DNA of 64,000 nucleotides, from contig NZ_FORH01000006.1 in NCBI RefSeq assembly GCF_900113955.1, positions 62,001 to 126,000 on the forward strand, given 5' to 3'. Within the stretch, counting starts at the first letter, position 1. Each line of letters opens with the position of its first letter. The DNA comes from Celeribacter neptunius. Lineage in GTDB: Bacteria; Pseudomonadota; Alphaproteobacteria; Rhodobacterales; Rhodobacteraceae. A program made the position numbers and the translations under genes. This document shows, one piece after another, positions 35,609 through 53,072 of the stretch. Below the pieces are notes generated by a model, which had not been told where the DNA came from, searched no databases, and saw only the letters and a program-made list of their open reading frames with translations.

Positions 35609-35786
35609 TCGTGTTGCTCGGGCGCGGGTGAACAGAACAGGCGACGATCGGCGATGAATGCGCTATTCTGACATGACCCTGTCGCAGGGGATGTCCGGCG
35701 CAAACATAGACCTTTAGGCAATGTTTCATCCTGCCGTGCTTTGCTAGGGTTGGTCTACGCATAGAATAAGAACAGTGGTCCGGTAT
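35609..35786. promoter_or_regulatory. Promoter region of the response regulator
   Basis: 180 bp leader. A TTGGTCTACGCAT near 35751 only loosely resembles the XoxF-locus motif, so autoregulation is uncertain. Confidence 0.3.
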
Positions 35787-36482
35787 ATGAACGACAAAGC
35801 CCCCATCCAAGTTGCAGGCGCCCTGGGACGTGCGCTCATCGTCGATGACCACCCGCTGTTTTGCGATGCGCTCTCCATGACCTTGCGGGCGGGCGTGGGG
35901 ATCGAGACGGTCGAGACCGCCGGGACGCTGGAAGAGGCGCTGAGCCGGCTCGAAGCCGGGCCGCTGCCGGATGTGATCCTGCTCGATCTCAACCTGCCGG
36001 ATGTGAACGGGCTCGACGGGTTGGTGCGGCTGACCAAGCAATGCCCGCAGACCCCGGTCGTCATCGTGTCCTCGATGGCCGAGCCGCGGGTGATCCGTTG
36101 CGCCATTCGTGTCGGTGCCGCCGGTTTCGTGCCGAAACATTCGACCCGCGAGACTTTCAGTAAAGCCTTCACGGTGATTGCAGGCGGCGAGGTCTATGCC
36201 CCTGAGGCGGCGCTCGCCGAGGCCGATCCGAACATGCCGATGAGCCCGCGCGAGGATGCGCTCATTCGTCTGTCGCACCTGACCCGGCAACAGGCCCGCA
36301 TTCTGCAGCTGATCTGCGAAGGCCAGATGAACAAGCAAATCGCCTATGAGCTGTCGATTGCCGAGACCACGGTCAAGGCGCATGTCACCGCGATCATGCG
36401 CAAGCTTGGGGTACAGAGCCGGACCCAGGCGGTGCTGATCGCGCAGGAGGCGAATTTCAACAGCCTCTTGCCCGAAGACTGA
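35787..36482 (+). CDS. LuxR-type (NarL-family) response regulator
   Basis: 231 residues from the ATG at 35787 (a GTG four codons earlier is possible). The receiver has acidic residues in RALIVDDHP and phospho-acceptor D67 in VILLDLNLPD. The LuxR HTH is HLTRQQARILQLICEGQMNKQIAYELSIAETTVKAHVTAIMRKLG, spread over residues ~165-210. It lies directly upstream of a FIST sensor and a hybrid kinase and adjoins the PQQ/XoxF locus, like the regulators of quinoprotein alcohol oxidation in other Proteobacteria. I propose that it binds the TACGACCAAAGTCGTA motif found across the locus. Confidence 0.9.
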   Translation: MNDKAPIQVAGALGRALIVDDHPLFCDALSMTLRAGVGIETVETAGTLEEALSRLEAGPLPDVILLDLNLPDVNGLDGLVRLTKQCPQTPVVIVSSMAEPRVIRCAIRVGAAGFVPKHSTRETFSKAFTVIAGGEVYAPEAALAEADPNMPMSPREDALIRLSHLTRQQARILQLICEGQMNKQIAYELSIAETTVKAHVTAIMRKLGVQSRTQAVLIAQEANFNSLLPED

Positions 36483-37723: not shown

Positions 37724-39945
37724 GCGAGATTGCCGAAAACCTGCTGAACCCGGCAGACAGCCCGGAGCGGTCGCGCGAAAAGCTGCTCAAGATCGTCGAT
37801 GTGCTGATGCGTCAGGTCGAGCATCGCTCGAACGAGCATGGCGCCGCCTATGCGCAGTTCCAGCGCGCGGCCATGCTCGAGGAACAGGTCCGGCAGCGCA
37901 CTGCGGATCTCGAATATGCGCTCGATCTTCTGAACGTGTCGAATGGCTGTCTCGCCGATGCCAACAGGGAACTGGAACTGGCGCGGCGCAACCTCGCCAA
38001 TGCGATCGAGACGGTGCGCGAAGGCTTTGCGCTCTTCGATCACAACGATTGCCTGGTCCTGTTCAATTCGCGCTTTTCGACCTTTCTGCCGGATGTGCGC
38101 GACGGGTTGAAAGAGGGGATGAGCTTTGCCCAATATGCCGAACTGGCGGGGGCCTCACCGCATCTCGACCTGAGCGACACCGATACGGCCTATGCCTGGG
38201 CGGCGCGGCGGATGGAGCGGCATCGCGACCGCCATGTGGTGTTCAACGTGCATGTGCGCGGCGACCGCTGGATCCAGATTTCCGAACACCGCACCGCCGA
38301 TGATGGCACCGTGATCCTGCAGACCGATGTGACCGACCTGGTGCTGACGGAGCGTGAAACCCGGGGGCGCATGCTCGACGATCAGGCGCAGATGATCCGC
38401 GCCACACTCGAACATATCTCGGTCGGGGTCTGCATCTTCGACAGGGAACGGCGGCTCGCAGGTGTCAATCAGCGGCTCGGCTACCTGCTCGGCCTGCCGA
38501 TGTCGCAGGTGCAGGCAGGCACCGGTTTCGAGATCATCTATGCGCGGGTGCAAGGCGCCTGGTCGATGTCCGGCAGCATGACGCCGGAGGAACTGTCCAC
38601 CTGGGTCTTCGGCGTGCCGCCCCGGGCGCCGATTACCTTTGAAATGGGACGCGAGGACGGGCGCCGGCTGGTGGTCTCGGCGGAGGATCTGCCGGACGGG
38701 GGCTTTGTGATGTCGGTCACCGATGTGACGGCGGAACGTCAGGCCATGGAAGAGTTGACGCGTACCAATGAAACGCTCGAAGCGCGGGTGATGTCGCGCA
38801 CGCTCGATCTCGAGGATGCTTTGTCAAAGGCCGAACGCGCCAATGCCGCGCGCTCGCGTTTTGTCGCCGCCGCCAGTCACGACCTGCTGCAGCCGTTGTC
38901 TGCGGCCAAGCTGTTTGTCGCCTCTGCCGAGGATGGCGTCGAAAGCGAAGAGACCCGGGGCATCCTGTCCAAGGCGCAAAACGCGCTCGCCAGTGTCGAG
39001 AATATCCTCTCGGCCCTGCTCGATATTTCCAAGCTCGAATCCGGGCGTTCGGCGCTCGACATCATGCCGGTGCCGCTGGGGCCGCTCCTGGCCCAGCTCC
39101 GGGATGAATACACGCCGGCCGCCGCCGCAAAAGGGCTCGATCTGCGAGTCATTGGCACCGATCAGGTGGTGGAAAGCGATCCGACCTACCTCAGGCGCAT
39201 TCTGCAGAACCTGATTTCCAATGCCATTCGCTATACCGATCGCGGACGGGTATTGGTCGGCGCGCGACGCAAGGGATCGGGCCGGATCAGGATCGAAGTC
39301 TGGGACACCGGCCCCGGCATTCCCGAGATCGAGCAACAGTCGATCTTTCAGGAATTTCACCGCTTGGGCACTTCTGCCTCGGCCTCTGTCGGCATGGGGC
39401 TGGGACTGGCCATTGTCGATCGCGCCTGTGCGCAACTGGGGCATCCGATCCATCTCGACAGCCGGCTCGGTCGCGGCACGGTCTTCGGCATCGATCTGCC
39501 GCTGGCGCGTGCCTGGATCGCCAAGCAGCCGGGCAGTTTCGCCCATGCCGAACCGGTCGACCGTCCGCTCTCGGGGCTGATTGTCCTGTTGGTGGAAAAC
39601 GATGCCGATGTGCGCCGCGCCATGACCCTTTTGCTGGAGAAATGGTCGCTGATGGTGATCTCGGCTGAGAATGGCGAAGAGGCGCTCGATCTGCTTGAAG
39701 AGCTCGAGGTCTCGCCTGATCTGATGCTGGTCGATTACCAACTCGGAGAGGGCATGGATGGCATTCGGTTCATCGAGAACTTCCGCGCGATCCATGGCCG
39801 GGTGCCGACCCGTTTGGTGACCGCCAACCGCTCGCCTGATGTGGCGCAGGCGGCCAAGCTGGCGATGATCAAGATGCTCTACAAACCCATCGCGCCCCGC
39901 GATCTCGAAGCTTTCGTTTCGGCTCCGCCGTCGCCAAGGGACTGA
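37720..39945 (+). CDS. PAS-domain hybrid histidine kinase
   Basis: 741 residues, soluble. It has an N-terminal coiled coil (~45-100), two PAS_7-type domains (~90-205 and 220-340), a second coiled coil, HisKA with H387 in AAASHDLLQPLSA, HATPase with N-box NLISNAIRYTDRG and G-boxes WDTGPGIPE and GMGLGLAIV, and a C-terminal receiver with D672 in LMLVDYQLGEGMDG. With no membrane segment it probably receives its input from the FIST protein encoded just upstream and phosphorylates the LuxR-type regulator. It ends convergently with an ABC permease gene, six bases apart. Confidence 0.93.
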   Translation: MSEIAENLLNPADSPERSREKLLKIVDVLMRQVEHRSNEHGAAYAQFQRAAMLEEQVRQRTADLEYALDLLNVSNGCLADANRELELARRNLANAIETVREGFALFDHNDCLVLFNSRFSTFLPDVRDGLKEGMSFAQYAELAGASPHLDLSDTDTAYAWAARRMERHRDRHVVFNVHVRGDRWIQISEHRTADDGTVILQTDVTDLVLTERETRGRMLDDQAQMIRATLEHISVGVCIFDRERRLAGVNQRLGYLLGLPMSQVQAGTGFEIIYARVQGAWSMSGSMTPEELSTWVFGVPPRAPITFEMGREDGRRLVVSAEDLPDGGFVMSVTDVTAERQAMEELTRTNETLEARVMSRTLDLEDALSKAERANAARSRFVAAASHDLLQPLSAAKLFVASAEDGVESEETRGILSKAQNALASVENILSALLDISKLESGRSALDIMPVPLGPLLAQLRDEYTPAAAAKGLDLRVIGTDQVVESDPTYLRRILQNLISNAIRYTDRGRVLVGARRKGSGRIRIEVWDTGPGIPEIEQQSIFQEFHRLGTSASASVGMGLGLAIVDRACAQLGHPIHLDSRLGRGTVFGIDLPLARAWIAKQPGSFAHAEPVDRPLSGLIVLLVENDADVRRAMTLLLEKWSLMVISAENGEEALDLLEELEVSPDLMLVDYQLGEGMDGIRFIENFRAIHGRVPTRLVTANRSPDVAQAAKLAMIKMLYKPIAPRDLEAFVSAPPSPRD

Positions 39946-39951
39946 GCCTCC

Positions 39952-40713
39952 TCAGGCCGGGCGCCAGCGTCCCGCAGCGCGTTCCCAGGGCTGGATCATC
40001 GTCCATTCGATCATCAGCATCACCATGATGAAACTGAGCGCATAGGCCAGCACATGCGCGGTCTCGAAATTCTGGAAATAGAGGTGGATGCGAAAGCCGA
40101 TGCCGGAGGAACGGCCCAGGAATTCGACCACCAGAACGACTTTCCAGATCATCGCCAGCCCGTTGCGCCCGGCGATGGCGAAATAGGGCGCAAGCTGCGG
40201 CAGGATCACATGGCGGAGCCGATCACCCGCGGGCATGCCGTAGCTCATCGCCATATCGGTGAGCCGAATGTCGCGCGTCCGCGTGCCGTCGCGCAGGGTC
40301 ACCGTCACCTGTGCCAGTTTGTTGAGCGTCACTGCGGTGATCGCGGCGGTCTCGTTGAGACCGATCCACAGGTAGCACAGCACGATCAGCACCAGCGCCG
40401 GCAGGTTGAGAAAGATCGTCACCCAAGTGCCGAGAAAGTGGTCGAGACGCGTGGAAAGCCCGAGCGCAATACCGAGCGCCGATCCCAGCACCATGGCCAG
40501 TGTAAAGGCGACAGTGACGCGGGTGAGCGTTGTCAGCATATCCGGCCAGAGCGCGCCCGAGCGTATCAGCTCGGTGAGCACGGCAAAGACCTGCATGGGC
40601 GAGGGCAGGACCATCGGATCGGCCTTGAGCCAGGAGGTCAGTGCCCAAAGCCCGATCAGCGCCGCCAAAGAGAGAGCGGTCATCGGACCTGTGCCTGTGG
40701 TCTCTCGTGCCAT
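39952..40713 (-). CDS. ABC transporter permease (NitT/Tau type), separated from its partners
   Basis: 253 residues with about six membrane segments (MTALSLAALIGLWALTSWL first) and the EAA-like loop MSYGMPAGDRLRHVILPQLAP. It belongs to the permeases of nitrate/taurine/sulfonate-type importers. No ATPase or binding protein is beside it, but an ATPase and a binding protein of this transporter class, without a permease, lie about 9 kb away next to xoxF. Both halves share the locus-wide operator motif, so they probably form one transporter. Substrate unknown. Confidence 0.85.
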   Translation of the reverse strand: MARETTGTGPMTALSLAALIGLWALTSWLKADPMVLPSPMQVFAVLTELIRSGALWPDMLTTLTRVTVAFTLAMVLGSALGIALGLSTRLDHFLGTWVTIFLNLPALVLIVLCYLWIGLNETAAITAVTLNKLAQVTVTLRDGTRTRDIRLTDMAMSYGMPAGDRLRHVILPQLAPYFAIAGRNGLAMIWKVVLVVEFLGRSSGIGFRIHLYFQNFETAHVLAYALSFIMVMLMIEWTMIQPWERAAGRWRPA

Positions 40714-40756
40714 CTCCTGCTCCCGACCTGTCTTGCCGTGCCGAGAGACTAACGCG

Positions 40757-40798
40757 CCTCTGGTCGAATGAGGCTCTGGACTTTGGTCGTATTACCGG
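40757..40798. promoter_or_regulatory. XoxF-locus operator pair, site A
   Basis: Minus-strand TAATACGACCAAAGTCC (40781-40797) and the weaker ATTCGACCAGAGGC (about 40757-40770), 23 bp apart. They lie in the divergent region between the permease and the NosR-like gene and share the GACCAAAG core with sites near xoxG, xoxF, the Sel1 gene and a cytochrome gene. Confidence 0.65.
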
Positions 40799-40826
40799 TT
40801 GCGCGCGGCGGGCATAGCTTGGGGGC

Positions 40827-42950
40827 ATGTGGAGGAGATCTCGATTGGCCAGATGGGGCGTCGCGCTGCTGAGTGCGTGGACCCTGCTCCTGTCCTGCGC
40901 TGCCCTTTGGGCCGAGGCGCCGGAGCCATTGCCGCGGGCGGAAATCGAAGCCCGGATCATGCCGCCCTATGCGCTTGGCGATCTGGCCGGGGGCGATCTC
41001 GGCACCAAGGGTGTCTACCTGTTGCTGAACTCGGGCGGGGCGGAGATCGGCTATGTCTTCGAAACCGGGCCTCTGGCGCCGCTGCCCGGATTCTCCGGCG
41101 CGCCGATTGATATGCTGGTGATGATGGACAAGGCGGGGCTGATCCTTGATCTGCAGCTTCTGTCGCAGCGCGAACCGGTCTTTGTCTCGGGCCTCGGCGA
41201 GGCGCCGTTTCGCGAGTTTCTCACACAATATCCCGGCCTGTCGATCACCCAGAGCCTGGTGATCGGTGTGCCCTATGGCGCGGGCGGCGCGGGCTCCGAT
41301 CTCACCTATCTCGACGGGGTCACCAAAGCGACGGCTTCCGTCCGGATCGCGCATGAGAGCATCCTCGCTGCGGCGCTGGCGGTGGCGCGCGACAAGATGA
41401 AAGGGATGAAGACCCAGGCCCCGGCGCGGCCCGACCCGGAGATCCGTGAGGAGCTGTCCTGGCCCGATCTGGTGGCGCAGGGCATTGCCCGATCACTGGT
41501 CGTCAGCAATGCCGAGCTCGACACGGCTTTTGCCGGCACGATCTGGGCGGAGGACGATCCGGAGGCGAAATCCGATCCCGAGGGCGCCTATCTCGATCTC
41601 TGGCTGGTGGATGTCGGCCCGCCTTCGGTGGCGCGTGCGACCCTGTCCGAAGAGACCCGCGAGGAGCTGGAGCATTTCCTCGAGGTGACGCCGGAGGCCG
41701 AGCCCTTTCTGGTGATGGATGCCGGGCGCCATGGGCTGGTGTCCGCGGATTTCGTTCGCAACACCGCGCCGGATCGCCTCTCTGCGGAACAGGGCGGCCT
41801 GCCGATGGGGCTGCGCGATGCCGATATCTGGGTCGAGCTGGCCGAGGGGCCGCCAGAGACGGAGACGGCGATGATCCTCTGGGCCGACCGGCGGCAGGGA
41901 TTTGACCCGCTCACCGAATGGACCCTGAAACTGCAGGCGGTGCGTCGTCATGGCATGTTCCAGCCGCAGATCGGTGATCGGCATTTCACCCTGGATTATG
42001 TCGCACCCGAGCGTTTCTTCATCGTCCCGCAAGGGCACAAGCCTCTGCCCGCCTGGGCCGAGGCGATGCACAATCGCAAACCGGATCTGATTGTCCTGGC
42101 GGTCGGGCTCGTCGCTCTGCTTGTTCTGCTCGGCCCGTTGATGAATCGTTTCGCCGCGCAGCGGTATTTTACCCGCTACCGTCTGGTCATATTGGCGCTT
42201 GTCGTCACCTTCGTCGGCTGGTGGGGGCAGGGGCAATTGTCGATTGTCACGGTGCTGGCCGTGCTGCGCGCGCTCTCTGGCGACGGATCGCTCTCTGTCC
42301 TGCTTTACGATCCGTTCTCGCTGTTGATCTGGGCGGTCGCGATCCTTGGCTTTTTTCTCTGGGGGCGCGGGCTGTTCTGTGGCTGGCTTTGCCCCTTTGG
42401 GGCGATGCAGGAACTGATGCATCACCTCGGGCGGGGCCTGCGCCTGCCGCAGATCATGCCGAACGCGCGCTGGGACCACCGTCTGAAAAAGCTCAAGTAT
42501 CTGATGCTGGCGGGGCTCGTCTTTGTCGCCTTTGCCGCGCCGGATTACGCCGAGAAGGCCGCCGAGGTCGAGCCGTTCAAAACCGCCGTCACGGTCTATT
42601 TCCAGCGCAGCTGGCCCTATATCGCCTATGCGGCCGGGCTTCTGTTGCTCTCCATGGTGTTGTTCAAGGGGTTCTGCCGTTATCTTTGTCCGCTTGGCGC
42701 GGTGATGGCGATCGGCGGTCTCCTCCGTGGTCGAGACTGGATCAAACGGCGCGAGGCCTGTGGCAGCCCTTGCCAGCTTTGCCGGGTCAAATGCGCCTAT
42801 GGTGCGATCCGGAAAACCGGCGAAATCCAATATGACGAGTGTTTCCAATGCCTCGACTGCGTGACCATCCACGACGATCCGGGGCAATGCGTACCGCTGA
42901 TCCTAGCGGCGAAACGCGGGGCACGGAACAGGCAGGAGGAAGCGGCATGA
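40827..42950 (+). CDS. NosR-like FMN-binding/4Fe-4S membrane protein
   Basis: 707 residues. A signal/anchor segment is followed by a periplasmic FMN-binding domain with DGVTKATAS at 163-171, where the TKAT matches the threonine flavinylation motif except for K in place of G. Membrane helices lie from about 425, with polyferredoxin motifs LFCGWLCPFGAMQE and FCRYLCPLGAVMA, and a C-terminal ferredoxin-like part (CGSPCQLCRVKC and CFQCLDC). NosR/NirI proteins move electrons between the quinone pool and periplasm. The next gene encodes the flavin transferase and overlaps it. No denitrification genes are present; its place in the XoxF locus is notable. Confidence 0.9.
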   Translation: MWRRSRLARWGVALLSAWTLLLSCAALWAEAPEPLPRAEIEARIMPPYALGDLAGGDLGTKGVYLLLNSGGAEIGYVFETGPLAPLPGFSGAPIDMLVMMDKAGLILDLQLLSQREPVFVSGLGEAPFREFLTQYPGLSITQSLVIGVPYGAGGAGSDLTYLDGVTKATASVRIAHESILAAALAVARDKMKGMKTQAPARPDPEIREELSWPDLVAQGIARSLVVSNAELDTAFAGTIWAEDDPEAKSDPEGAYLDLWLVDVGPPSVARATLSEETREELEHFLEVTPEAEPFLVMDAGRHGLVSADFVRNTAPDRLSAEQGGLPMGLRDADIWVELAEGPPETETAMILWADRRQGFDPLTEWTLKLQAVRRHGMFQPQIGDRHFTLDYVAPERFFIVPQGHKPLPAWAEAMHNRKPDLIVLAVGLVALLVLLGPLMNRFAAQRYFTRYRLVILALVVTFVGWWGQGQLSIVTVLAVLRALSGDGSLSVLLYDPFSLLIWAVAILGFFLWGRGLFCGWLCPFGAMQELMHHLGRGLRLPQIMPNARWDHRLKKLKYLMLAGLVFVAFAAPDYAEKAAEVEPFKTAVTVYFQRSWPYIAYAAGLLLLSMVLFKGFCRYLCPLGAVMAIGGLLRGRDWIKRREACGSPCQLCRVKCAYGAIRKTGEIQYDECFQCLDCVTIHDDPGQCVPLILAAKRGARNRQEEAA

Positions 42951-43822
42951 CCCTGACCCGTCGGAGATTTCTCACGCTCTCGGCCTGTGCGTGCGCACAT
43001 CCCGCATTTGCGACCGAACGGCACTGGTCCGGACGCGCTTTCGGCGCAGACGTTTCGATTGCCCTCACCGGGCGGGTGGATCGGCTCGGGGCGGATCTCG
43101 CCGCCGTGGTGGCCGAGATCGCAGGGCTCGAGGCGCGGTTTTCCCTGTTCTCGCCGATGTCGGAACTGCAGCAGTTGAACGCCCGCGGGCAAGGCGCGAT
43201 CAGCATCGAGATGGAAGAGATCCTGCGGATTTCGCGACGGGTACACCGGGCCACCGAGGGCCTGTTCGATCCGACGATCCAGGTGCTGTGGCAGGCTCTG
43301 GCGCTGGGCGCCGAGGCCGGGACAGCACGCGATCTGGTTGATTTCTCGCAGGTCGAAATTGGTCTGGGACGTGCAAGGCTCGGGCCGGGGCAAAAGCTCA
43401 GCCTCAATGGTATTGCCCAGGGCTATGCCACGGATCGCATCGCGGCATTGTTGTCGCGGCGGGGTTATGATCAGGCCCTGATCAACATCGGCGAATATGC
43501 GGCGCTGGGCGGGCCTTACACGCTGGGATTGTCCGATCCATCCGCCGGTCGCATCGGGCAGGTGAGTCTACGTGGCGCAGCGCTGGCGACATCGAGCCCG
43601 GAAGGTATGCGCATCGGCGGGGCGCCGCATATCCTGCACCCGAAAGGCGGGCGCCCGCTCTGGTCCACCGTGACGGTTGAAGCCGCCTCCGCCGCACTCG
43701 CCGATGCCTGTTCGACCGCCATGTGCCTGATGGACCGCGAACAGATCGAGACGGTGCAGGAGGTGCTGGGTCTGAGACGGGTGATTTTGGTCGATGAGGC
43801 CGGTGATCTGACGACGATTTGA
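42947..43822 (+). CDS. apbE: FAD:protein FMN transferase (ApbE)
   Basis: 291 residues starting at the ATG that overlaps the NosR-like stop (ATGA). The N-terminus MTLTRRRFLTLSACACAHPAFA is a Tat-type signal (RRRFL), placing the enzyme in the periplasm. The ApbE blocks LSLNGIAQGYATDRIA, LINIGEYAALGG and DACSTAMCLM are visible. It transfers FMN from FAD to a Thr/Ser of a substrate protein with Mg2+, and the obvious substrate is the FMN-binding domain of the upstream protein. Some motif positions deviate (AQGYA for the usual KGYA, IGEY for GGD). Confidence 0.92.
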   Translation: MTLTRRRFLTLSACACAHPAFATERHWSGRAFGADVSIALTGRVDRLGADLAAVVAEIAGLEARFSLFSPMSELQQLNARGQGAISIEMEEILRISRRVHRATEGLFDPTIQVLWQALALGAEAGTARDLVDFSQVEIGLGRARLGPGQKLSLNGIAQGYATDRIAALLSRRGYDQALINIGEYAALGGPYTLGLSDPSAGRIGQVSLRGAALATSSPEGMRIGGAPHILHPKGGRPLWSTVTVEAASAALADACSTAMCLMDREQIETVQEVLGLRRVILVDEAGDLTTI

Positions 43823-44071
43823 GCCCCTTGGGGGACGTTGGGATGTAAGGGCGTGCGCCGGACCGTGGGCAGGCGCTGCAGCTGTCGAACGTTGCACTTT
43901 ATGCCTGCCAAATCTGAGAAGAATTAGAACGATGCGCGCGGTCTCGAATGCGCCTGACCGCTGGGACGGTCCGGCGCACGCCCGGGCAACTGCGTTGCTG
44001 TTCCGGGCGGTTGCACATGGTTCGAACGTTCGTTTCGTCCCGCTCAGCGGCCCCTCCACCCCGGTCCGGCC
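43823..44071. other. Convergent intergenic region
   Basis: Between the ends of apbE and the xoxJ-like gene. No strong terminator or gene seen. Confidence 0.35.
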
Positions 44072-44995
44072 CTACCGCTCCGGTGGTAGAAAGCTCAGCC
44101 CGTGTGCGGCAAAGATCGCTTCGATCCGTCCGTCATTAAGTGCCTTCTCGATCGCGTAATCCACGGCATAGCCGAGATCCCGGTGCTGCATGCCGACCGC
44201 GACACCGACGGTCCATTCCGTCCGCGCGAGCCCCGGTAGCGGCGGGCGGTGCACGGCAAAGCGGTCCGCCACCTGATCCGTTTCGATCTCGGCTTCGATC
44301 ACCGCCAGCGGTGCCATCGAGGCCATGGTCTCGCCCTCGATCATCGCCGCCACCGCCGCCGGCGCGTTCGGATAGCGATGAATCGCTTCCGCGACCGACC
44401 CGTGCCCGATCGAGGCGAGATAGAAATCAGGCAGGCTGTCATTCTCGACCGCCACCGTGTCGTAGCGGAAATAGGCGGGTGTCGGCCCGCCATCCGGATA
44501 CTCGGCACGGTCGTAGCCGATGGCCAGCGCTTCACCCGCATATTGCCCGGTGAAGACCACCTGTTCGACACGACAGGTCAGCTTTGAATCGTAAGGCACA
44601 TGCAGCATCACGTCGGAGACACGCCCGCCGATCACCGCACCTTTCCAGATGTAATTGCGCAGATCGCTCTCGAGGTTTTCGTCGGCCTGCACCAGACGGA
44701 ACTTCGGCGTGACTCCGAGATCTTCGGCGATGATCCGGCCGATCTCGACGTCGATGCCTTGGGCTTTGCCACCCTCCTCGTAGGACCAGGGCGCGAAATC
44801 CTCGTAGAGGGCGAATTCGATCCAGCCAGATTCGAGGATGTCATCGAACTCACGGCCGATATCCTGCGCGGCGGTGTTTTGTGGCTTCGGTCCCGGCACA
44901 TAGTCCTCACAGCGCGCGAAAGCCGGCCCCGCACATGCGAGACCGGCCATCAGGGCGAGGACGGAAGCCGGGGTTTTGGAGATCCCGACGGTCAT
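44072..44995 (-). CDS. xoxJ: XoxJ/MxaJ-like periplasmic binding protein
   Basis: 307 residues with a signal peptide (VLALMAGLACAGPAFA). It has the SBP_bac_3 fold with the pattern typical of quinoprotein-associated binding proteins (CEDYVPGPKPQNTA; GWIEFALYEDFAPWSYEEGGK; GKAQGIDVEIGRIIAEDLGV). XoxJ/MxaJ are required for methanol dehydrogenase function and are thought to help assemble or activate the enzyme in the periplasm. It follows the XoxG-like cytochrome gene by 12 bases, the standard xoxG-xoxJ order, although here the pair is separated from xoxF. Confidence 0.87.
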   Translation of the reverse strand: MTVGISKTPASVLALMAGLACAGPAFARCEDYVPGPKPQNTAAQDIGREFDDILESGWIEFALYEDFAPWSYEEGGKAQGIDVEIGRIIAEDLGVTPKFRLVQADENLESDLRNYIWKGAVIGGRVSDVMLHVPYDSKLTCRVEQVVFTGQYAGEALAIGYDRAEYPDGGPTPAYFRYDTVAVENDSLPDFYLASIGHGSVAEAIHRYPNAPAAVAAMIEGETMASMAPLAVIEAEIETDQVADRFAVHRPPLPGLARTEWTVGVAVGMQHRDLGYAVDYAIEKALNDGRIEAIFAAHGLSFLPPER

Positions 44996-45007
44996 ATCAA
45001 CCCTCCC

Positions 45008-45682
45008 TCAATGCGTGGCGGATAGGCCGACGGTCAACAGATCGGCCGCGTGTTTCCAGGTCTCCGGATCGTCGGACATGGCCTGTGACGCTTCGAACGC
45101 CACCGAGACCGCGACCGGGGCGCCGGAGCCGGTTTCGACATGCGAGGCGATGGTCGAGAGCTCCTCTTTCACGCCTTCCGGATTCTCGAGATCTCCCGCC
45201 AGGAGGTGATCGCGGATCTCCGTCAGGCGGGTCTGATAGTCATCGAGCGCGCCATCATCCGGTCGGGTCTCGATATAGGTGCGGATGGCCCAGCCGGCCT
45301 TTTGACCGAGGATCTCGCCAAAGGCGGGCATCTTGGTGATGCCATTCTGGGTCATGCCGTGCTGGAACCGTTCGACGAACCATTCATCACCATATTCCTC
45401 GGCTTCGAGATAACGCAGATCCGGGGCAAGACCGCCGGAGACGACGCCGAGCCCGTGACAGCGGGCGCAGTTCTGGTTGTAGCCGGACGATCCGATTTCG
45501 ATGGCCTTGAGCCAGACCTCGTCGCCGGCCGCCTCCGCTCGGTACGGGTTCTCGCTCAGCCACTCTTCGCCCACGTCGGGCAGGGCGTCGGTGTTGACCG
45601 GTTGCGGCGCGACATCGCCATGGGCGAAGGCGGAAGTGGCAAGAACGAGTGCGGTAAGCGTGGCGGCAGATATGCGTTTCAT
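45008..45682 (-). CDS. xoxG: Cytochrome c, XoxG-like electron acceptor
   Basis: 224 residues from the MKRISAATLTALVLATSAFA signal peptide. A single haem c site C72-x-x-C75-H76 in NCARCHGLGV and a likely distal Met in ITKMPAFGEIL are visible, with the ANPYR-like ENPYRAEAAGDEVW N-terminal segment of c-L cytochromes. It should accept electrons from XoxF and pass them to the terminal oxidase. A longer in-frame start exists but has no signal sequence directly behind it. The gene heads the xoxG-xoxJ pair, divergent from the PQQ-associated binding protein, with operator site B between them. Confidence 0.88.
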   Translation of the reverse strand: MKRISAATLTALVLATSAFAHGDVAPQPVNTDALPDVGEEWLSENPYRAEAAGDEVWLKAIEIGSSGYNQNCARCHGLGVVSGGLAPDLRYLEAEEYGDEWFVERFQHGMTQNGITKMPAFGEILGQKAGWAIRTYIETRPDDGALDDYQTRLTEIRDHLLAGDLENPEGVKEELSTIASHVETGSGAPVAVSVAFEASQAMSDDPETWKHAADLLTVGLSATH

Positions 45683-45740
45683 GATGGTCCTCCCAACAGT
45701 TTCCCAAAAGGCTATCGCTGCGACTGCACGGCGCGCCATT

Positions 45741-45801
45741 AGACCTTGGTCCCAAAGACATCCGGAAACGGCAGCGGGCCATGAGACTTTGGTCCAATAT
45801 T
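45741..45801. promoter_or_regulatory. XoxF-locus operator pair, site B
   Basis: Minus-strand TTGGACCAAAGTC (45785-45797) and GGGACCAAGGTC (45743-45754), 43 bp apart, in the divergent region between the cytochrome and binding-protein genes. They show the same GACCAAAG core as sites A and C-E. Confidence 0.62.
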
Positions 45802-45849
45802 CCGCGCCGGGTCTGCGTGCTTAGGCTGAGGGCCTAGGGAGGATTTTCG

Positions 45850-47055
45850 ATGACAGGCATGGCACGGGCATCTCTGGCGAGGGCCGTCATGACCAGCATG
45901 GCCGCGATGCTCGCAGCGACCATCGGGGCGACATGGGCGACGGGCGCGGCGGCGCTCGACGTGTCGATCGGTTATCTGCGGTTCGAACGCCCGCCTCATG
46001 CGGTGCTCTCCAATCTCGACCCGATCCCGGAACGCCGGGGCATCGAAGGCGCGGAGCTGGCGCTCGGGGACAATCGCACCACAGGCAAGTTTCTGGGCCA
46101 TGACTATGGGCTCGAGGTGATCTCGGTGCCCTTCGACGGTGATATTTTCGCGGCCGCCAGGGCGATGGAGGCGGATCACGATCTGATCCTTCTGGATATG
46201 GCGGCAAAGGACATGCTTGCGATCGTCGATGCCGCCCCCGCCGGGACGCTGTTCTTCAATGTCGGCAGCCGCGATCCGGCCCTGCGCGACAGCGCCTGCC
46301 GGGCGCAGCTTTTGCACGCCATTCCCAGTTTGGCCATCGAGGCGGATGCGCTCATGCAGGTGCTTTTGGCGAAAGGCTGGAACAAGCTGGCCATGATCGA
46401 GGGGCCAACCCCGCAAGACAAGGCGCTGGCCGAGACCTATCGTAAATCCGTGCAGAAATTCGGGCTCAAGATCGTCTCGGAAGCGAGCTGGAGCTTTGAC
46501 ACGGATCTCAGACGCGCCGCCAGCCGGGAAGTGCCGTTGTTGACCCAAGCCTTCAAACCCCATGACGTGGTGCTCATTGCCGATGCCCACGGCGATTTTG
46601 CCCGTTACATCGAGCATAACACATGGCAACCGCGCCCGGTCGCCGGGGCCTCGGGGCTCGAAGCCGTCGCCTGGGCCCCGGTTGTCGAGCAATGGGGCGC
46701 GGCGCAGCTGCAATCCCGGTTTGAACATCTTTCCGGGCGGGAGATGACGCCAGAAGATTACGCCGCCTGGGCCGCCATGCGCACGATCGGAGAGGCGGTG
46801 ACCCGGCTCGGCCAAACCGACCCGGCAGAGCTGCGTGATTACATCCTTTCGGACGCCTTCGAATTGGCCGGGTTTCAGGGACGGCCGCTGAGCTATCGCC
46901 ATTGGAACGGTCAGATGCGGCAACCGATCCCGGTGGTCAACGCCCATGCTCAGGTGGCCTCGGCGCCCCTGGACGGGTTTGAACATGCCCGCAATCCCCT
47001 GGACACGCTCGGTATCGATCTGGCCGAGAGCCGCTGTTCCGCTTTTGGAGACTGA
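45850..47055 (+). CDS. PQQ-dehydrogenase-associated ABC binding protein
   Basis: 401 residues with a signal peptide ending near ATGAAALD. The mature N-terminus VSIGYLRFERPPHAVLSNLDPIPERRGIEGAELALGDN fits the branched-chain-type binding proteins linked to PQQ alcohol dehydrogenase systems (TIGR03863 family). In other genomes these lie with a dedicated ATPase and permease; neither is found next to it here. The gene is followed one base after its stop by a beta-propeller gene of the same system. Role in alcohol catabolism is inferred from conserved neighbourhood. Confidence 0.83.
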   Translation: MTGMARASLARAVMTSMAAMLAATIGATWATGAAALDVSIGYLRFERPPHAVLSNLDPIPERRGIEGAELALGDNRTTGKFLGHDYGLEVISVPFDGDIFAAARAMEADHDLILLDMAAKDMLAIVDAAPAGTLFFNVGSRDPALRDSACRAQLLHAIPSLAIEADALMQVLLAKGWNKLAMIEGPTPQDKALAETYRKSVQKFGLKIVSEASWSFDTDLRRAASREVPLLTQAFKPHDVVLIADAHGDFARYIEHNTWQPRPVAGASGLEAVAWAPVVEQWGAAQLQSRFEHLSGREMTPEDYAAWAAMRTIGEAVTRLGQTDPAELRDYILSDAFELAGFQGRPLSYRHWNGQMRQPIPVVNAHAQVASAPLDGFEHARNPLDTLGIDLAESRCSAFGD

Positions 47056-47056
47056 T

Positions 47057-48037
47057 ATGAGATTCGCCACGCTTCTGCTTTCAACCTGCCTCGCCGCACT
47101 CGTCACGCCGCTCCTTGCCGGGGAAATCCGGGCTGGTGAGATCTGGATCAGCAATGAAAAGGACGACACGCTGTCGGTGATCGACGCCGATACGCTCGAG
47201 GTGATCCGTACCATCCCGACCGGTGAACGGCCGCGCGGGATCACCTTCAATTCCGATTTCACCCGGCTCTATATCTGTGCCTCCGACAGCGACGCGGTGC
47301 AGGTGATGGACCCGGACACCGGCGAGATCCTGCACAACCTGCCGTCTGGCGAAGACCCGGAGCAATTCGTGCTCTCGCCCGATGACCGCCATCTCTGGAT
47401 CGCCAATGAGAATGACGCGGTCTCGACCGTGGTCGATGTGGAGACGCGCAAGGTCGTCTCGCAGATCGATGTCGGCATTGAACCGGAGGGCATGGCGATT
47501 TCTCCCGATGGCAAGACGGTGATCACCACCTCGGAGACCACCAGCATGGCGCATTGGATCGACGCCGAGACGCGTCAGATCTATGCCAATACGCTGGTCG
47601 ACGCCCGGCCGCGGCATGCGGAGTTCGTCAAGGATGGCTCAGAGCTCTGGGTCTCGTCGGAAATCGGCGGCACGATTGCCGTGTTCGACACCGCGACACA
47701 GCGTGAAAAGGCAAAGATCCATTTCGAGATCAAAGGGGTTCATCCGGACCTGATCCAGCCGGTCGGGTTCGAGCTGACCCCGGATCAGAAAACCGCCTTT
47801 GTTGCGCTGGGCCCGTCGAACCATGTCGCTGTGGTCGATACCGAGCGTTTCGAGGTCGAGGAATATATCCTCGTCGGGCGTCGCGTCTGGCATATGGCTT
47901 TCGGTCCCGATCACCGCCGGCTGTTCACCACCAACGGTGTCAGTGGTGATGTCACGGTGATTGATGTCGCCGCCCGTAAGGCGCTTCAATCCATCAAGGT
48001 GGGGCGTTTCCCATGGGGCGCGGTAATGCGCCCATAG
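47057..48037 (+). CDS. PQQ-associated YVTN beta-propeller protein
   Basis: 326 residues, secreted (signal MRFATLLLSTCLAALVTPLLAGE). It is made of repeats of the form ISNEKDDTLSVIDADTLEVIRTIPTGERPRG, about seven blades (YVTN/lactonase-like; TIGR03866 type). Such proteins accompany PQQ dehydrogenases; whether they are enzymes or scaffolds is not known. The start is the ATG immediately after the preceding stop (one-base gap), so the two are co-translated. Confidence 0.87.
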   Translation: MRFATLLLSTCLAALVTPLLAGEIRAGEIWISNEKDDTLSVIDADTLEVIRTIPTGERPRGITFNSDFTRLYICASDSDAVQVMDPDTGEILHNLPSGEDPEQFVLSPDDRHLWIANENDAVSTVVDVETRKVVSQIDVGIEPEGMAISPDGKTVITTSETTSMAHWIDAETRQIYANTLVDARPRHAEFVKDGSELWVSSEIGGTIAVFDTATQREKAKIHFEIKGVHPDLIQPVGFELTPDQKTAFVALGPSNHVAVVDTERFEVEEYILVGRRVWHMAFGPDHRRLFTTNGVSGDVTVIDVAARKALQSIKVGRFPWGAVMRP

Positions 48038-48269
48038 GTTTTTAAAAGATAATATAAATCGACATATATCTCTTAAAAAATCAAAATAATGCATTTTTAA
48101 GTCGGATTGCGATGAGCTTTCATTGCTGCTTCCCCGTGTGGGGGCCGTGTCCCGCTTTGGGGGTGCGCCTTTGGGGGCGCGTCGGGTCTCGGGTCCTGTG
48201 CGACCCGCGACCTTGGTCGCATGGGGCAATTTGTCCGCCTGTGGCAGCATTTGCGCAGGAGGACCTGTC
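48038..48269. other. AT-rich spacer and Sel1 promoter
   Basis: The first ~65 bases are exceptionally AT-rich for this genome (TTTTTAAAAGATAATATAAA type) and may include the terminator region of the propeller gene. The remainder is GC-rich and contains operator site E. Confidence 0.45.
48199..48224. promoter_or_regulatory. XoxF-locus operator, site E
   Basis: GCGACCTTGGTCGC at 48207-48220 is a perfect palindrome; on the minus strand it reads ATGCGACCAAGGTCGC and matches the locus motif. It lies ~50 bp before the Sel1 gene start. A weak second half-site GGGTC lies 23 bp to the left. Confidence 0.6.
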
Positions 48270-48854
48270 ATGAAACCTGCTGCACGCAACCTGTCCGCTC
48301 TGCTTCTGACCGGATTTCTCACCGCACCGCTTTGGGCCGAGGATCTGGCAATGACTCCGGGGGAGGACACCGAGGTGACCGAGGACGGTACGCTCAACCC
48401 GCATGAAATGTCCATGGCGCATCTGATGGATCAGATCCGCGACGGCGACACCGGCATGGTGATCTGTTCCCAAGGTTATCTTCTGACCAAATCCGGACGT
48501 CATGCGCTGGCCCGCGAATTGTTCGAACGCTGTGCCGACGAAGGCTGGACCGGGGCGATGACCTGGATGAGCCAACTTGAGGACAACGGGCTGGGGGCGC
48601 CGCAGGATCTCGAAGCCGCGAGCGAATGGAACCGCCGTGCCGCCGAGGCGGGCGATCCGGTGGGCAAGTTCAACCGCGGGCTCGATCTCATGCGCGGCTG
48701 GGGCGTGGCACAGGACGAAGAGGCCGGGCGCGCCCTCGTCGATGAGGCGGCGCGCGACGGGCTGGCGATCGCACAGAGGCTGCAGAGCGCGGATTACGAT
48801 CTCGACGAGGTCACGCCCGATGCCGACGAATGGCGCTATCAGAAACTGTTCTGA
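48270..48854 (+). CDS. Secreted Sel1-repeat protein
   Basis: 194 residues with signal peptide (LSALLLTGFLTAPLWAEDL) and a strong RBS AGGAGGA. Sel1/TPR-like repeats are visible near 85-160 (GWTGAMTWMSQLEDNGLGAPQDLEAASEWNRRAAEAGDP; FNRGLDLMRGWGVAQDEEAGRALVDEAARDGL). Such proteins mediate protein-protein contacts. Its place between the PQQ-associated genes and a cytochrome, and its own operator site, suggest an accessory or assembly role in the XoxF system. I do not know a characterised homologue. Confidence 0.8.
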   Translation: MKPAARNLSALLLTGFLTAPLWAEDLAMTPGEDTEVTEDGTLNPHEMSMAHLMDQIRDGDTGMVICSQGYLLTKSGRHALARELFERCADEGWTGAMTWMSQLEDNGLGAPQDLEAASEWNRRAAEAGDPVGKFNRGLDLMRGWGVAQDEEAGRALVDEAARDGLAIAQRLQSADYDLDEVTPDADEWRYQKLF

Positions 48855-48883
48855 GCCGTTGCCCCGCCCACAAAGTCCAGAAA

Positions 48884-48922
48884 CTACGACCAAAGTCGTA
48901 GGGTCTCTGCGACCAATGTCGG
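48884..48922. promoter_or_regulatory. XoxF-locus operator pair, site C
   Basis: CTACGACCAAAGTCGTAG at 48884-48901 is the best copy, with perfect 7-bp arms around CAAA. TGCGACCAATGTCGG follows exactly 23 bp downstream. Both lie upstream of the small cytochrome c gene. Confidence 0.75.
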
Positions 48923-49017
48923 GGGGCTTTGTTGAGGTAAATCAACATGGCGGAAGGGGATTGGCGCGATGTTGACTCGTGACAGATGAGACAGGTAGCG
49001 CGCCAAAGGAGACAGCT

Positions 49018-49404
49018 ATGAAAGCCAGACAATTCGCACTCGCCATGATCCCCACCCTTTTCGCGGCCGCCGCCCTGGCGGGAGAATATGATGCGATCAA
49101 GATCGAGGCGGGCGCCTCGCTTTTCGACAAGGAATGCCATCGCTGCCATTCGGTAGATGCCGATCGCGCCAGCTACGGCCCGCTCCTGAACGGGGTGATC
49201 GGGCGCAAGGCGGGGTCCTTCGAGGGCTACCCCTATTCCGACGCGCTGGCCAATGCCGGCTTCACCTGGACCAAAGGCGCGATCCGCGCCTGGATGGAGG
49301 ACAATGACGGCCTGGTGCCGGGTACGAAAATGCGCCACGTGGGTGTGACCGACCCGACGGTGCAGGATTTCATCGTCACCTATCTGGCGTCGATTTCTCA
49401 GTAA
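49018..49404 (+). CDS. Periplasmic cytochrome c (class I)
   Basis: 128 residues, signal peptide MKARQFALAMIPTLFAAAALA. Haem attachment C40-x-x-C43-H44 (KECHRCHSV) and distal Met in PGTKMRHVG. It resembles small cytochromes c550/c2-like carriers used between quinoprotein dehydrogenases and oxidases. It is monocistronic with two copies of the locus motif upstream, so it is probably induced together with xoxF and may receive electrons from XoxG. Confidence 0.9.
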   Translation: MKARQFALAMIPTLFAAAALAGEYDAIKIEAGASLFDKECHRCHSVDADRASYGPLLNGVIGRKAGSFEGYPYSDALANAGFTWTKGAIRAWMEDNDGLVPGTKMRHVGVTDPTVQDFIVTYLASISQ

Positions 49405-49438
49405 GATTGGCAGAGTGACCGGCCAGGCCGCGCCCGTC

Positions 49439-50098
49439 TCACTGGAGCCGGGCGGGCTGCCCCGCGAGGCGCAATTGTCGCGCGGCGAGCCGTGTTGCCT
49501 CGTGGTCCGAATGCGTCACCAGGAGCGTGGTGACCCGGGTCCGGGCCCGCAACTCTTCGAACAGGGTCATCATCTCATCGGCCAGTTCCGCGTCGAGCGA
49601 GACGAAAGGTTCGTCCATCAGCAAGAGTTCAGGCTCTGTGGCGAAGGCACGGGCGAGTGCGAGCCTGCGCTGTTGTCCGAGCGAGAGCTGGGTCGGGAAA
49701 TGTTCGGCCCTCTCTGACAGGCCGACTGCCGCGAGCCACTGTTGCGCCGCGTCGTTTGTGCACCGCGTCACCAGGGTGATATTGTCCCGCGCCGTGCGCC
49801 ACGGCAGCAACGTTGGGTCCTGAAACACCACGGCCATTCTCCCGGGGCGCTGCACCGTGCCGGTGAAGTCGCGATGCAACCCGGCGATCACCCGCAAGAG
49901 CGTGGATTTACCGACCCCGGAGGGGCCGGTGATGGCGACGGTCTCGCGCGGCAGGATGTCGAAGGCCAGAGGGCCGAGCACCGTGGCGCGCCCGTACCGG
50001 GCCCGCTCCAGACGCAGTGAAAGAAGGCGGCTCTCGCGCAGCGTCTCCGTTGCTTTGTCGAGCGGGGGGTGCAAAGCGATATGCCCGATGGCGGTCAT
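49439..50098 (-). CDS. ABC transporter ATP-binding protein (NitT/Tau type)
   Basis: 219 residues. Walker A GPSGVGKST at 58-66, Q-loop FQDPTLLPWRTARDN, signature LSLGQQRRLALARA, Walker B LLLMDEPF and switch His in LLVTHSD. It belongs to the SsuB/TauB-type importers. It starts 8 bases after the binding protein gene, so they form an operon that lacks a permease; the partner is probably the permease at 39952-40713. Confidence 0.9.
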   Translation of the reverse strand: MTAIGHIALHPPLDKATETLRESRLLSLRLERARYGRATVLGPLAFDILPRETVAITGPSGVGKSTLLRVIAGLHRDFTGTVQRPGRMAVVFQDPTLLPWRTARDNITLVTRCTNDAAQQWLAAVGLSERAEHFPTQLSLGQQRRLALARAFATEPELLLMDEPFVSLDAELADEMMTLFEELRARTRVTTLLVTHSDHEATRLAARQLRLAGQPARLQ

Positions 50099-50106
50099 CC
50101 CCAGCC

Positions 50107-51096
50107 TCAGGAGGCGGGTTTGTAGAACAGGCCCTCGGGCAGGCTGGTGGCCTTGCCGACCAGCGCTTCACCACCCAGAGAGGCCATGATCGCCAGCATC
50201 TTTGCCGCATCCTCTTCGGAGACCGGACCGGGGGCCGGGATGCCGGCGATCCAGCCGGCTTTCAACGCCTCGAACTGGGCGTCATTCTTGACCCGCATGC
50301 GATCGCGCAGCTGCTCCCAAGCGGCGTCATCGGACGCCAGAAGATCCTTGGCCTCGCGCGAGGCGGCGATCAGCCCCTCGACCAGCTCCGGGTGGTCTCT
50401 CACCACCTCGCCACGCATGACATAGCCCAGAAGCGGTGTGTCCGGATTGAGGCCAAGCGCCACGGCCGCCTCCGAGGTCGAGGCCAGAAGCCGCATGCCC
50501 GCAGCCTCCATCTTTGCTCCGAAATGCCAGAAATTGATCGCCCCGTCCAACTCGCCGGAGAGCGCGGATTTGAAAATCAGCGGCGGCGCGCCGAACACCT
50601 GTTCCGTGTCGCCGGCCAGATCCTGACCGGTTGCCTGCTCGGCATAGGCGCGCAGGATCAGCCAGCTCTTGTCATTCGGCCCGCCGGCAATGCCGATCTT
50701 GCCGCCTTTCAGGTCGGCGAGGCTCTGCGCGGGGCTGTCCTCGGGCACATAAAGCCCGCCAACGGCCTTGGAATAGGGGACAAAGACATAGTCCTTGCCG
50801 CTGGCGCGCTGGGCCGCGACCCAGAGCCAGTCGGCGACGATCATATCGACCTCGCCCGCCGCCAGGGCAACACGGGAGGCGGGGCTGCCGGCGACATCCA
50901 TGGTCTCGAGCTCGAACCCATGCGCCTGATCGAACTGGTTCTGTTTGATCGTCTCCACTTCCCAGGCCACCGTGCCGGACATATAGAGCGCGGCCTTGAG
51001 CGTCGGCAGGTCTTCGGCCTGAGCCGATCCCGCGATGAGGCCGGTCAAAGATGCGGCGGCGGTCAGGGCCATCAGGCCTTTCGTGAATCTGGTCAT
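50107..51096 (-). CDS. ABC transporter substrate-binding protein (NMT1/SsuA-like)
   Basis: 329 residues with signal peptide ([27 protein letters not shown]). NMT1/THI5-like fold pattern: [21 protein letters not shown], then [19 protein letters not shown] and [20 protein letters not shown]. It delivers an unknown small molecule to the permease. Divergent from xoxF with two operator copies between. In such a place a compound needed for methanol oxidation (an alcohol, a metallophore or a PQQ-related molecule) is conceivable, but nothing in the sequence decides it. Confidence 0.87.
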
Positions 51097-51142
51097 ATGT
51101 CGTCCTCCCTGGCCTCAAAGCTTGGCGCAGAGTCCCCGTGCG

Positions 51143-51208
51143 CGAAATACGACCAAAGGAGGGGCCGAATAGGGGCGGGTCGCATGGGAATTACGACCAA
51201 TGGCCAAT
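51143..51208. promoter_or_regulatory. XoxF-locus operator pair, site D (xoxF promoter)
   Basis: AATACGACCAAAGGAG at 51146-51161 and ATTACGACCAATGG at 51190-51203, 44 bp apart (about four helical turns), in the divergent region between the binding protein gene and xoxF. Left half-sites ACGACCAA are perfect; right halves are degenerate. Confidence 0.7.
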
Positions 51209-51305: not shown

Positions 51306-53072
51306 ATGAATAGGTTTGTCACCGCCGCGAGCGCGGCCATTCTCGCGCTGGGATTCGCACAGGGCACCCTCGCGGGGGTGACCGAAGCGGATCTGCTGAA
51401 CGACGCGACGACGCCGGGCGACGTGCTCACCAACGGCATGGGGCGCAGTCTGCAACGCTACTCGCCGATCGCCACGCTGAACAAGGACAATGTCGAAAAT
51501 CTCGTGCCGGCCTGGGCCTTCAGCCTCGGCGGCGAAAAACAGCGCGGTCAGGAAACCCAGCCGCTGGTGCACGACGGGGTGATGTATATCACCGGGTCCT
51601 ACAGCCGGGTCTATGCCATCGATCTGAAGAGCGGCAAGGAACTGTGGCAATATGATGCCCGCCTGCCGGAAGGCATTCTTCCCTGTTGCGATGTGATCAA
51701 CCGCGGCGGCGCGATCTATGGCGACAATTTCTATTTCGGCACGCTGGATGCGCGGATCGTGGCGCTGGACCTGAAGACCGGCGACGTGAAATGGCGCAAG
51801 AAGATCGCCGATTACAAGGCCGGCTATTCCTACACGGCGGCGCCCTTGATCGTGAACGGTCTGGTGATCACCGGCAACTCCGGCGGTGAGTTCGGCATCG
51901 TCGGCGAAGTGCAGGCGCGCGACGCCGAGACCGGCGAGCTTGTCTGGACCCGTCCGGTGATCGAGGGCCACATGGGCACCTACAAGGGCGAAGAGAGCAC
52001 CATGACCGGTACGCTCAACGCCACCTGGCCGGGCGACATGTGGAAGACCGGTGGCGGCGCCACCTGGCTCGGCGGGTCCTATGATGCCGAGACCGACACG
52101 CTGGTGTTCGGCGCGGGCAACCCGGCGCCGTGGAATTCGCATCTGCGCAACGCCGGCGCCCCGACCGAAGGCAACACCGGCGACAACCTCTATGCCGCGT
52201 CGCGGATCGGTATCAACCCGGAGAATGGCGAGATCAAATGGCACTTCCAGACCACGCCGCGCGAGGGCTGGGACTTTGACGGGGTGAACGAGGTCGTGGC
52301 CTATACCGACCGCGCGGGCAACAAGCGCTTTGCCACCGCCGACCGCAACGGCTTCTTCTACGTGCTGAACCGTGAAGACGGCAAATTCGTCTCCGCCACA
52401 CCTTTCGTCGAGGACATCACCTGGGCCGAGGGCATCGATGAGAACGGTCGCCCGATCTACAACGAGGACAACCGTCCGGGCAATCCGCTCGAGGCCGAAA
52501 AGGGCGAGATGGTCTTTGCCGTGCCGTCCTTCCTGGGTGGCAAGAACTGGATGCCGATGGCCTATTCCCAGCACACGGGCAATTTCTACGTGCCTTCGAA
52601 CGAATGGGGCATGGACATCTGGAACGAACCGATTTCCTACAAGAAAGGCGCGGCCTATCTCGGCGCCGGTTTCACCATCAAGCCGATCTTCGAAGATCAT
52701 ATCGGCTCTCTGAAAGCCATTGATCCGGATAGTGGCGAAGTGCGCTGGAACTACAAGAACGACGCGCCGCTCTGGGGCGGGGTGATGACCACCGCCGGCG
52801 GTCTGGTGTTCTTCGGCACGCCCGAGGGTGAATTCATCGCGCTCGACGATGAAACCGGTGAAAAGCTTTGGTCGTTCCAGACCGGTTCCGGCATCGTCGG
52901 CCAGCCGATCACCTACGAGATGGATGGCGAACAATATGTTTCGATCGTCTCCGGCTGGGGCGGTGCGGTGCCGCTCTGGGGCGGTGAAGTGGCCAAGAAG
53001 GTGAACTACCTCAACCAGGGTGGCACCGTCTGGACCTTCAAACTGCCGAAACAGCTGGCCATGGCCAACTGA
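51306..53072 (+). CDS. xoxF: Lanthanide-dependent PQQ alcohol dehydrogenase XoxF
   Basis: 588 residues, signal peptide [24 protein letters not shown], then the eight-bladed PQQ propeller. The adjacent cysteines C127-C128 ([12 protein letters not shown]) form the disulfide ring near PQQ. In [11 protein letters not shown] the catalytic D323 is followed two residues later by D325, the extra aspartate that marks lanthanide-binding XoxF enzymes and is Ala in calcium MxaF. It oxidises methanol and other primary alcohols in the periplasm. RBS GGGAGGA precedes the ATG; a longer upstream frame is rejected because it would destroy the signal peptide. Confidence 0.95.

Follow-up and report, generated by a model that had tools for sequence, protein, structure and literature searches.

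Conserved NarL-type inverted repeats in the promoters of a PedH-like alcohol oxidation locus of Celeribacter neptunius, and their candidate regulator

A 2026 review lists nosP, pedS1/nahK and agmR of Pseudomonas consecutively, names AgmR as an activator of both the ped core genes and the pqq operon, and regards it as unsettled what part NosP and PedS1/NahK play in alcohol sensing (PMC12997753). We analyzed a comparable locus in a 64,000-nt stretch of Celeribacter neptunius (contig NZ_FORH01000006.1, assembly GCF_900113955.1), hereafter the window, in which a 16-bp element recurs in five intergenic regions. As with AgmR (ErbR, PedR1) in that review, a response regulator gene lies beside genes for NosP-like and NahK/PedS1-like proteins, whose model scores in the window fall below the curated cut-offs, and as in the ped/exa cluster there are genes for a pyrroloquinoline quinone (PQQ) alcohol dehydrogenase, a PedF-type cytochrome and PedA1/A2 (PMC12997753). 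Putative operators stand at the dehydrogenase, PedF and PedA1/A2 genes, as would be expected of an AgmR/PedR1 regulon. The window differs from the Pseudomonas cluster in having additional presumed targets, namely a NosR-like/ApbE-like pair and a split ATP-binding cassette (ABC) transporter, and an accompanying FNR-type box.

Two other described systems are less close. CrbR/ErdR, of acetate utilization, is likewise a LuxR-family response regulator with an inverted repeat ahead of its promoter, the imperfect ACTU motif at -52 to -36 (PMC5715377), but both regulator and targets are different; the two are set apart here by description and model score. Membership of the window's regulator in the ErdR/CrbR family was rejected, as it scores 176.8 bits with NF041830 (cut-off 390). 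In Paracoccus, a related bacterium, FlhSR exerts two-component control over one-carbon oxidation (methanol and formaldehyde genes), but with different targets as described there (PMC8879981). No printed letter-level operator for an AgmR-like regulator was found in the literature searched, which is weak evidence of absence, as the search did not extend to most subscription papers or to figures, among them the ACTU logo and, in PMC9927353, the motif of ErdR. A search of the literature for the bare string GACCAAAG gave, among the matches listed, unrelated titles.

Nine copies of the element lie near 40.7, 45.7, 48.2, 48.9 and 51.2 kb (Table 1), in all five intergenic regions where the original prediction had placed them. 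In its correct register the element reads TACGACC-AA-AGTCGTA, that is, two inverted heptamers separated by 2 bp, and its general form is TACGACC-WW-RGTCGTA. This is the layout of NarL operators, inverted heptamers beginning with TAC in a 7-2-7 arrangement bound by a NarL-family regulator, but the heptamer TACGACC departs from the NarL consensus. A matrix built from 108 distinct sites of relatives, outside marked genes and excluding the window, has a strong left arm TACGACC followed by AA/WW, R and G, and a weaker right arm. Scored with it, eight strong copies (20.4-25.9 bits) are the top eight matches of the whole window, while the copy at 40753 is weak, with a TGCGACC half-site at its position in several relatives; the predicted number of about nine thus stands as eight plus one. 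The best copy had been described as a perfect palindrome; the 7-bp arms of CTACGACCAAAGTCGTAG are perfect, but its centre, CAAA, is not self-complementary. The core of the operator at 40776 is the same or one base off across nine aligned relatives.

The clustering of these sites was examined by several approaches. First, all nine window matches of at least 14 bits to the relatives' matrix fall inside 40.7-51.3 kb, the 48885 site counting once on each strand, and 200 column-permuted matrices gave a mean of 0.6 and a maximum of 4, none reaching 9; the sites of this matrix were first gathered with the window's nine copies, so the test is partly circular. A placement test over 64 heptamer variants (TACxyzC-WW-RG) is less so. 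For this and other counts we fetched 23 named loci and 18 further stretches (17 from other relatives and 1 from the own genome), and used 35 orthologous loci, six paralogous loci (L066-L071) being counted apart; loci may duplicate species (L034 and L110 have identical dehydrogenase-promoter sites), and counts are not independent lineages. The target, up to 320 bp upstream of eight cluster genes, made up 59.5 of 632.7 kb. All 62 matches to TACGACC-WW-RG lay upstream of these genes, in 27 of the 35 loci, and the next-best variants have 1. Furthermore, the nine-copy matrix (at least 11 bits, both strands, 60 permuted matrices) gave 112 matches in the 11 closest loci (permuted mean 12.0, maximum 39) and 136 in the 24 further loci (22.4, 61), while the six paralogous PedA1/A2 loci were not enriched (9 matches; 5.6, 17). 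In alignments with nine relatives the boxes form islands within otherwise diverged promoters. Finally, a site of at least 10 bits was present in 25 of 30 dehydrogenase promoters (200 permuted matrices: mean 0.8, maximum 5), taken from family genomes, the own one included, at one genome per genus; several of these genomes, or close relatives of theirs, recur in the 35-locus set. Many related genomes with the same genes carry the motif at cluster genes.

The picture in the whole 4.4-Mb genome is different. The exact string TACGACCAAWGNC occurs three times, always in this locus. Allowing one mismatch there are 25 matches, five of them at the locus, against 26 for the reversed pattern; TACGACCWWRG occurs 8 times, three at the locus, against 10 for its control. 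The five off-locus TACGACCWWRG matches lie within open frames or at their edges; four of these score below 10 matrix bits and one 17.0. Away from the locus and the pqq region, exact GACCAAAGTC is found seven times, in six cases within an open frame of at least 120 aa. There is thus strong local enrichment and, by these pattern counts, no genome-wide excess. The original prediction would have been abandoned if matches were as frequent at random in this genome: the raw counts are indeed no higher than the controls, but placement is not random, and the regulon that was proposed is supported as a local one.

Judging from sequence comparisons, the protein that most probably binds the operators is the response regulator encoded at 35775. 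It is the best candidate because of co-occurrence, sites beside unlinked regulator operons, unenriched paralogous clusters and its homologues in another class, and these four lines of association support the original choice of the LuxR-type regulator (35787) as a candidate. First, a regulator match of at least 50% identity was found in 29 of 30 genomes that have the dehydrogenase at 79% identity or more, versus 19 of 119 others; in most genomes the best 19 first-look candidates were scored, and the sole miss, G190, is 73% complete. Of 27 orthologues, 26 share the recognition-helix segment KAHVTAIMRKL, the exception being L033; L053 and L066 (36-39% identity) were kept out of this count. Second, in 20 regulator loci where the dehydrogenase is absent or unlinked, the regulator-NosP-kinase operon is mostly intact, and 10 of them have a site beside it (permuted maximum 4, n=300). 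In two (L140:10602-14995 and L141:8017-12662) an operator lies between this operon and a molybdenum hydroxylase operon, so assigned by model and resembling carbon monoxide dehydrogenase/glyceraldehyde dehydrogenase. In L143, L146 and L157 the likeness is limited to the order of frame sizes. Third, a second PedA1/A2 cluster in the own genome (L066, contig C10) has its own regulator (42% identity) and NosP-like and kinase genes, and no site of at least 11 bits.

The fourth line comes from genomes of another class, presumably Gammaproteobacteria. Of 23 fetched, 15 were used; the exclusions, made after the loci had been viewed, were seven whose stretch lacks any homologue of PedA1, PedA2 or the dehydrogenase, together with G207, which belongs to the window's own class. 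Their AgmR-like regulators are 36-44% identical to that of the window and mostly have TVKAHVSAIL where the window has TVKAHVTAIM. The window matrix was not enriched in 20 loci, 19 of them from the other class (27 matches; permuted mean 24.8, maximum 76), and inspection of these loci led to a variant heptamer, TACTACC, in place of TACGACC. Nine of 12 matches to TACTACC-WW-RG fall at the genes for PedA1, PedF and the dehydrogenase, a target that makes up 6.4 of 540 kb, and they come from 7 of 15 genomes, three of the seven (G248, G252, G333) being from one genus.

We consider it highly probable that each copy serves as an operator to which the NarL-type regulator at 35775 binds as a dimer, and that this regulator would activate the alcohol oxidation genes as a set; the regulon reading of the original prediction seems mostly right. 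The binding, activation and signals that we infer may be as follows. The NahK-like kinase would phosphorylate the regulator under alcohol-related, possibly nitric-oxide-related, signals. The phosphorylated regulator would then occupy one or two operators immediately ahead of each promoter, each operator holding a dimer on two inverted TACGACC heptamers 2 bp apart. The PedH-like dehydrogenase, the cytochromes, PedA1/A2, the split ABC transporter and the NosR-like/ApbE pair would thereby be switched on jointly.

Several points weigh against this reading. In the window, the gap that precedes the regulator's own gene contains no site of at least 8 bits, and the kinase is a hybrid with a receiver domain that may need a phosphotransfer protein. 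Eight of the 35 loci have no TACGACC-WW-RG at all, and five of the 30 dehydrogenase promoters have no site of at least 10 bits, half-sites being visible by eye in four (L123, L134, L137, L138). At least three strong matches lie off the locus: C9:489818 (23.2 bits) and C18:137981 (19.8), both inside open frames, and C3:2099 (19.3), outside any frame of at least 100 aa. The base preference is not strict, because the promoter of G260, an other-class genome, carries TACGACC, while a relative in the same genus with an identical DNA-binding segment has TACTACC. In addition, an ExaA regulator of Azospirillum works with sigma-54 (PMC6115532), so more than one promoter type is conceivable here.

The regulator might repress rather than activate, for example without alcohol or with nitric oxide. 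We regard this as unlikely: the related PedR2 of P. putida does help repress pedH while activating pedE, according to one study (PMC6115532), but for AgmR the review describes activation of the ped core genes (PMC12997753). Moreover, the operators are upstream of promoter-like positions. Somewhat less probable still is that the operators are real and their main binder is another NarL-family regulator, such as the C10 paralogue or the homologue at C5:1199814 (42% and 35% identity), given that members of this family can share heptamers; yet the C10 cluster lacks a site at the threshold given above, and across relatives the sites accompany the window-type regulator. Action of the motif in RNA, as a hairpin, attenuator or regulatory RNA, is very improbable and was rejected: the transcript of 48870-48930 folds better than its shuffles (z -3.87), which is expected of any near-palindrome, but the other four regions are unremarkable (z -0.25 to -1.59), 35-56 kb contains no match to an Rfam family at or above the gathering score, and the sites occur in both orientations and between divergent genes. 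Chance, or a repeat family with no regulatory role, to which the genome counts (25 vs 26; 8 vs 10) would lend themselves, is virtually excluded by local clustering and already contradicted because the sites are conserved within otherwise diverged orthologous promoters.

Table 1. Putative operators and genes of the locus (window positions; bits are scores with the relatives' matrix for operators and model scores for genes)
Feature	Position	Strand	Remarks
Weak second operator	40753..40768	-	23 bp from the 40776 operator; 11.0 bits
Operator TACGACCAAAGTCCAG	40776..40791	-	Between permease (-) and NosR-like (+) genes; 25.9 bits
Operator	45739..45754	-	Between PedF-type cytochrome (-) and PedA1-type (+) genes; 20.8 bits; aligned with relatives
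Second PedF/PedA1 intergenic operator	45782..45797	-	21.7 bits
Operator upstream of Sel1-like gene	48206..48221	-	22.1 bits
Best operator TACGACCAAAGTCGTA, cytochrome c promoter	48885..48900	+	25.9 bits
Second cytochrome c promoter operator	48908..48923	+	23 bp downstream of the first; 20.4 bits
FNR/CRP-type box TTGAGGTAAATCAA	48932..48945	+	Centre 23 bp after second cytochrome-promoter operator
Operator upstream of PedH-like dehydrogenase and divergent binding-protein genes	51148..51163	+	20.9 bits
Promoter-proximal operator TACGACCAATGGCCAA, dehydrogenase promoter	51192..51207	+	22.2 bits; orthologous promoters compared
NarL/LuxR-type response regulator, candidate binder	35775..36482 (ATG 35787)	+	REC and GerE; NarL 1a04 E 9.6e-24
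NosP-like FIST protein	36521..37723	+	NF041558 364 bits, below cut-off 450
NahK/ErcS'-like hybrid histidine kinase	37720..39945	+	NF041832 365.8 bits, below cut-off 400; PAS_7, HisKA, HATPase, REC
SsuC-like ABC permease, presumed target	39952..40713	-	
NosR-like membrane protein, presumed target	40827..42950	+	NosR model 460 bits, below cut-off 1000
ApbE-like gene after NosR-like, presumed target	42839-43822		ApbE model
PedF-type cytochrome c550, presumed target	45008..45739	-	TIGR04494 195 bits, cut-off 122
PedA1/PedA2-type binding protein and beta-propeller, presumed target	45850..48037	+	TIGR03863 and TIGR03866 above cut-off
Sel1-like protein, presumed target	48270..48854	+	Sel1 21.9 bits, below Pfam cut-off 30.7
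Cytochrome c, presumed target	48979..49404	+	Real start probably ATG 49018
ABC ATPase, presumed target	49439-50098	-	tblastn with ABC_tran proteins of relatives
SsuA-like binding protein, presumed target	50107-51096	-	
PedH-like PQQ alcohol dehydrogenase, presumed target	51306..53072	+	

The dehydrogenase had been labelled XoxF. Its closest solved enzymes are 6zcw/6zcv (E 2e-250), PedH of P. putida, followed by 1flg (3.5e-201), the calcium enzyme ExaA; the XoxF-type 4mae (1.3e-93) is far behind and an XoxF identity was rejected. The enzyme has vicinal cysteines (CC) and the WDFD motif, as 6zcw does, whereas 1flg has WDFS. It looks like a PedH-type (lanthanide) alcohol dehydrogenase rather than XoxF, to go by its sequence. 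The label xoxG for the cytochrome at 45008 fails too, as this is of the PedF type. One ABC transporter is apparently split about 10 kb apart, with operators at both parts: the permease lies at one end of the locus and the binding protein and ATPase (49439-51096), its likely partners, at the other, and these genes are contiguous in relatives L064 and L068. This supports the suggestion that the motif ties the separated permease to the dehydrogenase. The NosR-like and ApbE-like pair (40827-43822) is kept in the cluster in many relatives. Where the window has only a short AT-rich stretch, at 48037-48270, seven loci (L031, L034, L046, L054, L058, L060 and L063) have about 2 kb extra with a pedB-like ABC ATPase. 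In L065 the PedA2 reading is broken by stops.

The arrangement of the sites differs among promoters. The pair spacings given for the window (23, 43, 23 and 44 bp) are correct. Among relatives in which both sites exceed the threshold, the spacing is always 23 bp at the cytochrome promoter (10 of 10) and at the Sel1 promoter (6 of 6), but it varies from 24 to 50 bp at PedF/PedA1 (25 pairs) and from 26 to 60 bp at SsuA/dehydrogenase (13 pairs), and the proposal that all pairs face one side of the helix does not hold as a general rule. Over 21 distinct region-spacing pairs, R is 0.25 at 10.5 bp, under the 95% null of 0.39; the 57 raw pairs give an uncalibrated 0.43, dominated by repeated spacings of related loci. 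Beside the cytochrome operators is a TTG-N8-CAA box, found in 19 of 22 orthologous cytochrome promoters, the window included (orthologues of at least 45% identity, expected strand; background 0.039 per 160 bp), and matching 8-10 of the 10 letters of the FNR consensus. In the window and in 10 of 11 close relatives, the two regulator boxes precede its centre by 23 and 46 bp, the eleventh (L055) having over threshold only the box at 46. Seven loci that are more distant have boxes of both types, and there the distance to the regulator box is 33-34 bp in six cases and 18 in the other. From the end of the FNR-type box to the likely start, ATG 49018, it is about 72 bp. At this promoter two regulator dimers and an FNR/CRP-family protein may sit in a fixed 23-bp array, in which the second regulator would tune the cytochrome gene.

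The genes for PQQ synthesis are elsewhere. In the own genome pqqA, pqqC and pqqE are on contig C17, and pqqA is preceded by an exact GACCAAAGTC, but its surroundings score weakly (11.0 bits) and overlap the end of another gene. pqqA was found in five of eight loci examined, four of which have an upstream match of at least 11 bits, with scores of 23.6 together with 16.3 (G024), 15.9, 11.7 and 11.0 (own); the best, in G024, is common to a divergent NosR-like gene. Of 13 genomes that carry the dehydrogenase cluster, the own one and those of 12 relatives, only the own genome and G024 have both pqqC and pqqE. In the other 11 (G001, G006, G011, G012, G013, G014, G016, G018, G019, G025 and G035) no pqqC exceeds the cut-off of 240 bits, with weak matches at 38-39 bits in four, and pqqE is absent at E <= 1e-60. 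These relatives may depend on external PQQ.

It is possible, though we hold it only tentatively, that nitric oxide is coupled to lanthanide-type alcohol oxidation in the periplasm through the operon of NosP-like, NahK-like and regulator genes, that the 23-bp array of the cytochrome promoter adds an oxygen- or nitric-oxide-responsive FNR/CRP-family input, and that the operator changed by one base per arm between Alphaproteobacteria and Gammaproteobacteria. Our results supply a letter-level candidate operator for an AgmR-like regulator of alcohol oxidation, and through such operators a split ABC transporter and a NosR-like protein are tied to the dehydrogenase. The comparison of operators across two classes offers a way to study change in recognition helices. 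Together with the conserved operon, the operator makes the role of NosP and PedS1/NahK in alcohol sensing testable.

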